10,677 nucleotides of DNA, from contig JALSOU010000115.1 of NCBI GenBank assembly GCA_026986305.1, positions 1 to 10,677 on the forward strand, given 5' to 3'. The DNA is from Thermoplasmata archaeon (lineage in GTDB: Archaea > Thermoplasmatota > Thermoplasmata > WALJ01). The notes under the pieces were generated by a model, which was not told the origin of the DNA, did not search any database, and saw nothing but the letters and a program-made list of their open reading frames with translations. Position 1 is the first letter of the stretch, and each line of letters begins with the position of its first letter. This document shows positions 1,866 to 5,842 of the stretch, in pieces. A program made the position numbers and the translations under genes.

Positions 1866-4800
1866 TCACACCTCCTCAAGCTGGAGTCTCATAACGACTC
1901 CAAGGGACATGAGTTCATCTCTCAGCAGCTTGAAAGCGTAGCTCACCTGCACAGGATGTATATTGGTCCTGTTTCCGCAGACTGGGCAGTACATGGCTCC
2001 CTTCTTATCCAGGATGGCTATATGCCCGCATTTTGGATTTCCGCAGACATAAACTATGGTACCATCAGACTGATCCAGAAGCCTGTCCTTGATAACCATC
2101 GCAACGCCATGGCCTATGAGGGTATCTCTTTCCATCTCTCCGAACCTAAGACCTCCCTGCCTTGACCTTCCCTCTGTAGGCTGTCTGGTAAGTATCTGTA
2201 CAGGTCCACGGGACCTCATGTGCAGCTTTCCTGACACCATGTGGTGCAGCTTCTGATAATAGATTATTCCCACATAAATCTCAGCCTTAATCTTCTCACC
2301 TGTAATTCCGTCATACATCACCTGGGTTCCTGTGTGCTTGTACCCGTTCCTGACCAGAGCCTCCCTTATTGCCATCTCCCTCTCCCCGCTGAAGGGAGTG
2401 CCGTCAATAAACCTTCCTTCCATTGATCCAACGACTCCTCCGATCATCTCCAATATGTGGGCTACGGTCATCCTTGAAGGTATGGCGTGCGGATTTATTA
2501 TTAGATCAGGAGATATTCCTTCCTCTGTGAAAGGCATGTCTTCCTGAGGCAATATGGCGCCTATGACCCCTTTCTGACCGTGTCTGGATGCGAACTTATC
2601 GCCGAGTTCAGGTATCCTCAGGTCCCTCACGACCACCTTAACCAGCCTACTTCCATTCTCTGACTCTGTTAACATGACTGAATCAACCCAGCCCCCTTCT
2701 CTTGGTCTAACAGTTGTGGATGATTCCCTGCGCTCCTGGGCAGCAAGAAAGTCTGCGCTCTCCTCTATGAACCTCGGAGGAGATGTCTTTCCTACCAGAA
2801 CATCCCCTTCTTTAACAGCGAGCTCAGGGCTTATTATGCCGTCCTCTCCCAAATGGGCATAGGCCTCTTCGCCCCTAGCTCCCTTAACTCCGGGCCCGGG
2901 AATCTCAAAGTGGTCTTCCTGACCGCCCGCATATCTGCGCTCCTCGTCCTTGTATGTCCTGAAGAATGTGGACCTTCCCAGACCCCTGTCTACAGATGCC
3001 TGATTGAATATTATGGCATCCTGCATATTGTAACCTTCATGCGATATTATGGCAACCACGCAGTTCTGCCCAGCAGGCCTGCGGTTGTAGTTTATGAACT
3101 CCATGGTCTTTGTCTGCACCAGCGGTTTCTGAGGATAATGCAATAGATGAGCCCTGGTATCTGTCCTCATCCTGAAATTGGAAACAGCCAGGCCGAGGGA
3201 CTGCTTTCCCATCGCTGCTCCCATGGTGTTTCTCGGAGATGAGTTGTGCTCAGGATATGGAACTATGCCTGTGGCCACTCCCAACATAAGGAGCGGGTCA
3301 ACCTCCATGTGAGTGTGCTCCTTTGTTAAAAGAAGTTCTGTCTCAAACCTTCCTCCACATTTCTTGCACTCCAGCCTCGCTATGTTCTCTCCAGCACCCA
3401 TGTTTATCCAGAGAACATCCTCTCTTGACAGATACCTGCCGCAGTGCGGGCACTTTTCAGGCACCTCATACGGATAAACCGCTATGTAGGTGTCCTCCTC
3501 CTCTTCCGCATCTATCCACTCTATTATTCCCCTTTCAACCAGATCGCTGAGCTTGAACTCTCCTTTTCTCAGAGCCTCAACTTCATCCATGGTTATGTCG
3601 GGCTTACCGTCCTTGAGAACTAGGAGCGCTCTCCTTATCCTTCCAGCGTCGGAGTTTATGAGGACTTCGTTCATGTGGTCGTCATACCTTACATTGACCT
3701 CATGAGATAGCATGTTGCTCCTTCTTCTTTCCCTTATGGCCTCAACCAACTCCCTAGGATTATCTATGGTTCCAACGAGGTCTCCGTTGACATAGACCCT
3801 GGCTTTTCCTGCCACATCCTCCTCCTTTTTCAGCCCCATGTCTTCAAGCATGTATAGAACTTCATTCTCGGGATAGCCCTCTGAGACATCCACGATGAGG
3901 GCGAGGTTCTTCACCAGACCGCAGTTCTGACCCTCAGGGGTTTCATTGGGGCACAACCTACCCCACTGTGTAGGATGCAAATCCCTTGCCTCAAAGTGGG
4001 GCTGTGACCTTGTCAAAGGCGATGTTACCCTCCTCATGTGTGAGAGAGCGCTCAGGTTTGATGTCCTGTCAAGCAGCTGAGATACTCCCGTCCTTCCGCC
4101 GACCCAGTTTCCTGTGGCCATGGCGTGCATTATCCTCTGGGTTAGGAGGTCCGGCCTTATAACAGATCTGATCTTTATGTCATCCCTCTTTCCGAGCCTC
4201 TCTATCTGGTATTTCAGGTCTGAAAGCAGGGCATTTACAGCCATTCTGAACAGGTCTTCCATGAGGTCTCCTGAGAGCTTCAGCCTTTTGTTGGCATAGT
4301 GGTCCTTATCATCGGGCTCTCTCTTTCCTATAGCCAGCTCAAGAACGCTCCTCGCCATTCTTCCGAGGAATATTGCCTTCTTCTTCCTGTCCCCCTTGCT
4401 TGATCCTAGGTGGGGAAGGAGGGCATTGTCCAGTATGGAAGATACCTTCTTCTCCCTGTACTCCTTGGCCTGCCCAGCTGCATATCTCCTCTCAAGGTAA
4501 TCCAAAGCATCCTGAGTGGTGAATATTCCATTTGGTTTGTATGCTTTGGGATCGTGGATTTCCTCAAGATTGGCGTAGACTATGTTCTCCATCTCTGGCT
4601 CAGTAACTATGGCCTTGAATATCTCCTCGTCGCTGTCCATACCCAAAGCTTTCATAAGAACCATCAGAGGTATGGAGCCTGAGGCTGTTGGGACACTGAC
4701 AGTGAGTATACCATCCTTCTTCTTTTCCATGAGTGTCAGTGCCCTGTACCCCTCTCTCTGTGAAAAGACCTTGGCGACCTCTATGCTCGTACCGTATCTC

Positions 4801-5453
4801 TCATCTCTTTCTACAAGTATCCTGTTTGGGGCCAGATCCTCCAAGGATATGAGCACTCTTTCGGAGCCACCTATTATGAAATAGCCACCCGGATCTAAGG
4901 GATCTTCAAACCTTTTTTCGAGCTCCTTTCTATACTCCTCATCTGTGAGCTTTCTCTGCAGCTCCTGCTCAAGGTTATCCCTGTGCAGGTTGCATTTAAC
5001 AGATTTTACCATTATAGGTATGTTTCCCACAAATATCCTCTGCGGGTCTCTTTCAACCCCATTGACGGTTATAGTAAACTCTATTTCTACAGGGGCCACA
5101 TAGCTAAGGTCTCTGAGCCTAGCCTCCATAGGTGTAATCTTGTGTGATGAACCGTTAGCCTCTTTCACCTGGGGCTGCCCAACAAATATGGTCGGACCTG
5201 AATCTGAATCTATCTGACCTGTTACAGGATCTCGCCTCCTTCCAACCCTTATGATTATCTCTGAGCCACCGACCCTGTCTGGATTTAGAACTATGGTCCC
5301 GGGTTCAGCGCCCTCTCCTATGCGTATGGTATCCAGAACCCTCTGCATCCTTGAATTTGGGTTTTTCTCACTGGCTATGAAGTCGTTAAACGAGGCTATG
5401 TGGTGGTTTACCACGCTCCTTTCCTTAAAGAATGCGTCTATAAACTCTCTCAT
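1866..5453 (-). CDS. rpoB: DNA-directed RNA polymerase subunit B (RpoB), single-chain form
   Basis: This second-largest polymerase subunit (Rpb2/beta homolog, 1195 aa) forms the other half of the active-site cleft. Visible landmarks are the fork region [11 protein letters not shown] (503-513), [12 protein letters not shown] (806-817), the catalytic-lysine segment [12 protein letters not shown] (951-962), the clamp anchor [10 protein letters not shown] (1101-1110), and the usual C-terminal zinc ribbon with C1137, C1142, C1156 and C1159. The chain is unsplit, whereas many methanogens and haloarchaea encode B'' and B' separately; from memory the split falls near residue 550. Between DTYIAVYP (654-661) and EHTHMEVDP (712-720) lies an additional ribbon with C668/C671 and C696/C699 (about 3330-3470), which the B subunits I can recall from other archaeal lineages lack. 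The start is set by AGGAGG with 7 nt to ATG. The gene lies 19 nt after rpoH and ends at the rpoA' start. No intein or frameshift is seen. Confidence 0.99.
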
Positions 5454-5472: not shown

Positions 5473-5727
5473 TTAGCCCCTCACCACAACACGGTATGCT
5501 ATGGATATGCCGGCGGTCTCGCTTTCCCTTATTATCCTTATTATTGTGCCTTCCTCTATGGTTCCATAAGCAGATTCTAGAACCTGAATGACGGGATCGC
5601 TCTTCCTTATCTTCGGGAGCTCATCCTTGCTTATTTTCATCTCTTCAAGTATCTTTTTCTCATTTTCTTTGCTAACTATCTGGTGCTCAGGGACGAGGTG
5701 GTTTACGAGTATATTTACATCGGGCAT
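5473..5727 (-). CDS. rpoH: DNA-directed RNA polymerase subunit H (RpoH)
   Basis: This 84-aa protein is the archaeal H subunit, equivalent to the C-terminal domain of eukaryotic Rpb5. It contacts the A subunit at the downstream-DNA jaw. Family signatures are [11 protein letters not shown] near the N terminus (residues 8-18), [10 protein letters not shown] (37-46), and the C-terminal strand region ending AYRVVVRG, with [12 protein letters not shown] just before it. The length is normal for the family. The start is fixed by GGAGG with 7 nt to ATG. Its place directly ahead of rpoB and rpoA' is the usual archaeal order. Unusually, a tRNA-Lys gene ends only 22 nt upstream on the same strand, leaving no room for a separate TATA-box promoter, so this cistron probably shares the tRNA transcript. 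Confidence 0.97.
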
Positions 5728-5749: not shown

Positions 5750-5842
5750 CGGGCCTGTGGGGAATTTCGGCGCTCCTGCGCTTTCGAACCCCAGGCCGTC
5801 TGGTTAAAAGCCAGACGCTCTACCTAGCTGAGCTACAGGCCC
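5750..5842 (-). tRNA. tRNA-Lys (anticodon UUU) with a 19-nt T-loop intron
   Basis: Read on the minus strand, the cloverleaf is complete. Acceptor GGGCCTG (5842-5836) pairs with CAGGCCC (5757-5751), with discriminator G at 5750 and no encoded CCA. The D stem is GCTC/GAGC with a 9-nt loop. The anticodon stem TCTGG/CCAGA encloses CTTTTAA with anticodon TTT at 5808-5806. The variable loop is CGGCC and the T stem is TGGGG/CCCCA. The T loop is 26 nt instead of 7. Removing positions 5782-5764 restores a perfect TTCGAAT loop and a 74-nt mature tRNA. The excised segment folds as a BHB splicing motif (see the intron entry). The gene lies 22 nt upstream of rpoH on the same strand. Identity follows from the anticodon and stems, without database comparison. 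Confidence 0.95.
5764..5782 (-). other. 19-nt BHB intron at position 59/60 of tRNA-Lys
   Basis: Minus-strand folding, outside to inside: T-stem GGGG (5792-5789) with CCCC (5762-5759); a 4-bp central helix TTCG (5788-5785) with CGAA (5769-5766); an inner helix GCGC (5781-5778) with GCGC (5773-5770); and a terminal AGGA loop. A 3-nt bulge AAA (5784-5782) interrupts one strand and a 3-nt bulge ATT (5765-5763) the other. This is exactly the 3-4-3 substrate of the archaeal splicing endonuclease EndA. Cleavage after the second base of each bulge, the usual site, removes 5782-5764 and leaves TTCGAAT. The strict geometry suggests that even an EndA of narrow specificity could cut it. The fold is read directly; the splicing is inferred. 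Confidence 0.93.

Follow-up and report, generated by a model that had tools for sequence, protein, structure and literature searches.

We are highly confident that the tRNA-Lys(UUU) gene of the window (the whole 10,677-nucleotide stretch of DNA analyzed) is a working, probably essential gene, interrupted in its T loop at position 59/60 by a bulge-helix-bulge (BHB) intron of the EndA type, which an alpha'2-type EndA is predicted to cut out before RtcB joins the exons. A spliced, working gene is indicated by the orthology of the gene, its strict BHB, the rarity of the structure among shuffled sequences (42 of 200,000), its unchanged exons, the presence of EndA and RtcB, and the use of AAA codons. 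The intron is inherited and not a local oddity, since orthologous genes across Thermoplasmatota use the same site. The new element is how widely the intron is spread through Thermoplasmatota, where it occurs alongside a two-repeat EndA with no specificity loop.

The interrupted tRNA-Lys(UUU) gene and its host genome

As read from the sequence, the gene (5842-5750 on the reverse strand) is complete apart from a T loop of 26 nt (5788-5763), closed by the T stem TGGGG 5793-5789 / CCCCA 5762-5758. The loop contains a strict 3-4-3 BHB, in which a 4-bp helix between exon and intron is flanked by two 3-nt bulges, AAA 5784-5782 and ATT 5765-5763 (Table 1). The predicted cuts, each between nucleotides 2 and 3 of a bulge, would take out 19 nt at site 59/60 and restore the 7-nt T loop TTCGAAT. 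The initial annotation had proposed these exact ends (5782-5764) and this restored loop; the strict BHB in the sequence and the fold, as well as the shuffles, bear it out, and the site is further confirmed by its recurrence in three relatives.

Table 1. Features of the tRNA-Lys(UUU) locus, in window coordinates
Feature	Positions	Strand	Basis
tRNA-Lys(UUU) exon 1 (positions 1-59; anticodon TTT)	5783..5842	-	Sequence; tRNA parser; ARAGORN tRNA-Lys(ttt)
Predicted 19-nt BHB intron, position 59/60	5764..5782	-	Strict 3-4-3 BHB; shuffles; same site in L002, L003, and L004
tRNA-Lys exon 2 (positions 60-73; CCA not encoded)	5750..5763	-	Sequence; T-stem and acceptor-stem pairing with exon 1
Exon side of the central 4-bp helix, TTCG (positions 54-57)	5785..5788	-	Sequence; fold
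Intron side of the central 4-bp helix, CGAA	5766..5769	-	Sequence; fold
Intron inner hairpin GCGC-AGGA-GCGC (GCGC 5781-5778 / GCGC 5773-5770 around AGGA)	5770..5781	-	Sequence; fold
rpoH (Rpb5 C-terminal domain), start 22 nt past the tRNA	5473..5727	-	Open reading frame; PF01191
rpoB, used to place the genome and its relatives	1866..5453	-	Open reading frame; 80 relatives

Folding of the 93-nt precursor to minimum energy (-45.4 kcal/mol; z, -3.74) gives a structure that includes the BHB. Across 200,000 shuffles of the 19 intron letters, 11,944 formed the exon-intron helix and 648 formed the inner helix; the two helices occurred together in 42. The spliced 74-mer is called as tRNA-Lys by ARAGORN and folds into a cloverleaf-like structure with a 7-nt T loop, its D arm being mispaired as it is in the precursor. 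It is very probable that a splicing enzyme removes the intron. Generic tRNA finders mishandle the unspliced gene, as had been foreseen: ARAGORN calls a tRNA-Lys but sets its end at 5769, and the Rfam tRNA model scores it at 29.7 bits (cutoff, 29) with the 3' half misplaced.

By reading, a GGAGG motif lies between the tRNA end and rpoH (5750-5727). The tRNA-Lys and rpoH-rpoB may be on one transcript, in which case tRNA processing would free the mRNA start.

The genome assembly of the host, an uncultured archaeon (1.03 Mb in 225 contigs; 75% complete), gave 34 tRNA matches and contains both EndA and full-length RtcB genes. Three other tRNAs, with anticodons CAU, GUA, and CCA, have anticodon-loop introns by reading, which indicates that tRNA splicing is in use. 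No other tRNA-Lys(UUU) gene was found among the 34 matches of this 75%-complete genome. An intronless tRNA-Lys(CUU) is present; such a tRNA normally does not read AAA. AAA codons were counted in five genes of the window and occur in all of them (18, 3, 7, 18, and 13).

Two host tRNA loci are of note. On contig C156 (L113, about 183-347), a CCA (Trp) tRNA missed by ARAGORN has, by reading, a long intron that seems to contain C/D-box-like motifs. A second tRNA-Arg (CCG) on contig C46 (about 3088-2969, reverse strand; L112, about 589-470) has a 47-nt T-loop insertion without a clear BHB, and an intact tRNA-Arg copy sits directly downstream of it. A stretch similar to this interrupted copy is found in the relative G003, where a portion of the insert has matches at five further places, and a mobile or integration-site origin of the insert is possible.

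tRNA-Lys(UUU) genes in near relatives and across Thermoplasmatota

Comparison of the tRNA-Lys genes of relatives, as proposed in the initial annotation, revealed same-site introns and near-identical exons in three MAGs (L002, L003, and L004), whose RpoB is 90%, 81%, and 89% identical, respectively, to that of the window. Their introns at 59/60 are 20, 22, and 20 nt long, and their exons equal those of the window except for one letter in L003. The strict BHB is kept in all four genomes.

These comparisons bear on the view that the T-loop insertion disabled the gene and that another tRNA-Lys serves the cell. An assembly that is 75% complete could be missing an intact or heavily interrupted tRNA-Lys(UUU) copy, and the interrupted tRNA-Arg copy of the host, without a recognizable BHB, does adjoin an intact one. 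However, the tRNA-Lys exons have stayed constant but for one letter across four genomes that differ by 10 to 19% in RpoB, the insertion is at one fixed site with its BHB kept in 4/4, and the search of the host genome turned up no other tRNA-Lys(UUU). We therefore consider a pseudogene very improbable, and a functional gene with a spliced intron remains our reading.

We parsed tRNA-Lys(UUU) at the rpoB loci of the window and 80 relatives and obtained the gene at 59 of the 81. The 59/60 intron is present in 34 of these genes, together with a D-loop intron (20/21) in 28 and as the only intron of the two in 6, including the window; 3 genes have the D-loop intron only, and 22 have neither. Among the 22 loci without a parsed tRNA-Lys, three belong to genomes (L176, L178, and L184) with genes elsewhere that carry both introns, and 19 remain unparsed. 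T-loop introns at 59/60 were also found in an anticodon-CAU tRNA (Ile2- or Met-like) in L182, L183, L185, and L187. The initial annotation had regarded the site as unusual for this lineage. That view is not supported, as the site recurs in Thermoplasmatota, in 34 of the 59 parsed genes and, by a strict sequence pattern, in 61 of 389 genomes.

The extra nucleotides might instead survive tRNA maturation and form an enlarged T loop of an unusual kind. Against this, both the length (19, 20, 22, and 20 nt in the clade) and the letters of the insertion vary while the BHB persists, and an ordinary 7-nt loop is common in the orthologous genes (the 22 of 59 with neither intron). Retention of the loop is the least likely of the alternatives weighed here, and we find hardly any room for it beside removal of the insertion as an intron.

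In 33 of the 34 T introns, all four bases of the exon strand TTCG can pair with an intron segment whose distance to the 3' splice site is constant. The inner helix starts immediately in 18 of the 34, so that strictness varies beyond the clade of the window. The D introns (n = 31) are not strict BHBs by reading, their outer side having two exon letters that face a 3-nt bulge. Their exon-intron helix varies with compensation, with 118 of 124 possible pairs formed and 25 of 31 helices full; 5,000 shuffles gave a mean of 95.8 pairs (max, 108) and 11.6 full helices (max, 19), although this shuffle ignores kinship and the 31 related sequences amount to 12 distinct helix types. An association between D and T introns beyond shared ancestry was not significant, the independent pairs that differ across supported branches (3 for D and 6 for T) being too few.

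The strict pattern matched in 80 of the 389 Thermoplasmatota genomes, with the control column at zero among the rows listed. Because the pattern is strict, the counts across the phylum are lower bounds. By script, 61 of the 80 have T introns (18 in other classes and 43 in the class of the window, including the window), and the remaining 19 are intronless genes that also fit the pattern; two genomes scripted as intronless (G323 and G326) look like real introns by eye, which could raise the 61 to 63. Among the 18 T introns from other classes, two (G108 and G072; L207 and L208) failed to parse as whole tRNAs. When 30 of the matched loci were examined whole, 16 had the T intron only, 3 had the D intron only, 8 were intronless, and 3 remained unparsed. 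The exon-intron helix has 4/4 pairs in 43 of the 61 matched strings, 3/4 in 13, and fewer in 5, in which the match may end inside the intron. Several genomes from other classes have only 3/4 pairs in the central helix. In the relative G001, two equal-scoring matches, each as long as an intron-containing gene, were seen (G001:C2:17116-17209 and G001:C87:7406-7499), and this pair may be an assembly duplicate.

By reading, 19 of the 21 other-class genomes with an rpoB match have tRNA-Lys upstream of that gene, with contig and strand in common. This position, shared with the window, indicates that the tRNA-Lys genes are orthologous. In an RpoB tree of 81 rows, the window, L002, L003, and L004 form one group (SH-aLRT, 100), and the next supported set (SH-aLRT, 97) is larger by 18 rows: 17 that are intronless, Aciduliprofundum and Acidiplasma among them, and one whose intron state is not assigned. 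When the 21 other-class genomes were added to the tree, T introns appeared on either side of its deepest split; the rows L079 and L244 fell on the unexpected side. The minimum number of changes, a count that cannot separate gain from loss, was 7 for T and 5 for D over 80 rows, or 7 and 4 over the 79 rows left without one half-length row. The distribution fits a T intron that is old and was lost several times.

The EndA of the host and its relatives

The sole EndA match in the host genome is a 330-amino-acid chain with N- and C-terminal EndA domains, matched by PF02778 (in two stretches) and by PF01974. It has the makeup of an alpha'2 chain (one chain with two EndA repeats, about 290 to 350 amino acids), and from this chain architecture we infer an enzyme of the alpha'2 type, expected to be a homodimer. 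Its relatives in the PDB include the alpha'2 enzymes of Thermoplasma acidophilum and Archaeoglobus fulgidus, and the best sequence match is 5x89 (Methanopyrus kandleri). The initial annotation had associated the intron with a broad-specificity EndA of the crenarchaeal kind; the only EndA found in the host is instead a single two-repeat chain without an insertion of the CSL/ASL type.

PF01974 was matched in 46 of 48 genomes of the class, where 36 of the 46 open frames are 286 to 401 amino acids long and the rest range from 192 to 651, and in 17 of 22 genomes of other classes (frames of 330 to 393 amino acids). The matched genomes span those with and without tRNA-Lys introns. Within each genome all PF01974 matches fall in one open frame, except in G155, where two frames look like one gene duplicated. 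The two-repeat chain of the host and the one-frame pattern of the matched genomes (46/48 and 17/22) speak against separate alpha and beta genes or a three-unit chain, within the reach of a PF01974 search that a diverged beta subunit could escape.

We placed the specificity loop by analogy with A. pernix K44, as described in part of one account (PMC6379350), and by alignment with known EndAs. By reading, six residues separate YG from LxLS in 36 of 36 aligned EndAs, with no Lys-bearing CSL/ASL-type insertion, such as crenarchaeal or ARMAN enzymes carry, before LxLS, and the catalytic repeats of the M. jannaschii and A. fulgidus EndAs have the same six-residue spacing. The catalytic-triad pattern is present in all 36 EndAs of the class and in 44 of 53 overall. 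A longer, glycine-rich loop was seen in the N-terminal repeat of the EndAs of many intron-bearing relatives and also of intronless ones such as L033. In L034, L052, L072, and L081 (Aciduliprofundum- and Thermoplasmatales-like), the N-terminal repeat is shorter and more degenerate than in intron-bearing relatives.

A further alternative accepts the intron but assigns its removal to a broad-specificity EndA, with a CSL/ASL-like loop or with separate alpha and beta subunits, encoded in unassembled DNA. Published accounts link noncanonical introns to such enzymes in the portions cited here (PMC6379350 and PMC4033280), none of the MAGs can be taken as complete, and a beta subunit that has diverged could go unmatched. 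Against this, the matches are confined to one open frame per genome in both sets of genomes, the duplicate-like pair in G155 aside; the 36 aligned EndAs have no insertion between YG and LxLS by reading; and a strict BHB needs no broad enzyme. Removal by a broad-specificity enzyme thus seems very unlikely, and the alpha'2 EndA is the one that we carry into the scheme below.

Predicted maturation and comparison with known systems

In the transcript, the CGAA in the 3' part of the intron would pair with exon nucleotides 54 to 57 (TTCG) to form the strict bulge-4-bp-bulge. EndA would cut at 5783/5782 and 5764/5763, and ligation by RtcB would then restore a T loop of 7 nt, TTCGAAT. Positions 54 to 56 would enter the tRNA elbow only once the exons are joined. 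Cleavage, ligation, the homodimeric state, the order of events, and the effect on folding are all deduced from sequence and predicted structure. Given the predicted fold, the D loop and T loop would be unable to dock before splicing, since the intron would occupy TTCG by pairing with it.

Noncanonical tRNA introns have been reported mainly in Crenarchaeota (especially Thermoproteales) and Thaumarchaeota, according to parts of two papers (PMC8450103 and PMC3218864). In the same parts, these introns resemble the present one in being short, lying outside 37/38, and having a BHB at the junction, with splicing by EndA and RtcB expected and with several introns per tRNA, as in the relatives examined here. 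In contrast, the introns described here are in Thermoplasmatota, in one orthologous gene, at two fixed sites (20/21 and 59/60), and accompany a loop-less two-repeat EndA. Canonical 37/38 introns share the strict 3-4-3 BHB geometry with the intron of the window, which differs in being in the T loop and not in the anticodon loop. In Thermofilum pendens, permuted tRNAs are joined at 59/60, as a section of PMC3218864 describes, and so share the T-loop splice position; their gene halves are reversed, whereas the gene of the window is colinear.

The usual rule, as stated in parts of three accounts (PMC6379350, PMC12397907, and PMC4033280), links tRNA introns at unusual sites to EndAs that gained a specificity loop, and passages in the first two describe the alpha'2 EndA as narrow. 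Methanopyrus kandleri, in the sections of PMC6379350 and PMC4033280 that treat it, is comparable in being euryarchaeal, with multiple introns and an EndA without CSL/ASL; its EndA is (alpha beta)2 in vivo, whereas the host EndA is one fused chain. Korarchaeum cryptofilum combines a two-repeat EndA (proposed alpha2) with noncanonical introns, as covered in part of a 2014 review (PMC4033280), which in that part names Korarchaeum as the only archaeon with both. Its EndA is said to carry the specific loop, while the 36 aligned Thermoplasmatota EndAs have no insertion at that place. Thermoplasmatota look like a large exception to the Korarchaeum-only statement. In a literature search, with supplements and GtRNAdb outside its scope, none of the papers that came up treats D- or T-loop introns of Thermoplasmatota.

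Relaxed motifs are also cut by related enzymes: according to parts of two papers, homodimeric EndAs can cut BHL-like motifs (PMC8707768), and the A. fulgidus EndA does so at 37/38 (PMC6379350). Removal of the relaxed D introns by an alpha'2 EndA would thus not be without precedent. A more far-reaching scheme, which we offer as speculation and judge doubtful, is that Thermoplasmatota keep an ancient pair of elbow-loop introns in tRNA-Lys(UUU) (20/21 and 59/60), each pairing with exon nucleotides of the elbow. A plain alpha'2 EndA without a loop would remove both, relaxed motifs included, making the elbow an ordered, EndA-gated step (T first and D second), and the clade of the window would represent the T-only state.

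Annotation of tRNAs in Thermoplasmatota can truncate or miss intron-bearing tRNA-Lys genes. In many Thermoplasmatota genomes one orthologous gene carries D- and T-loop introns, and the EndA, where tested, is a two-repeat chain without the loop, so that the rule tying noncanonical introns to a specificity loop is testable in this phylum with one enzyme and a few transcripts. Moreover, the states of tRNA-Lys (both introns, T only, D only, and none) form a series for studying intron gain and loss.
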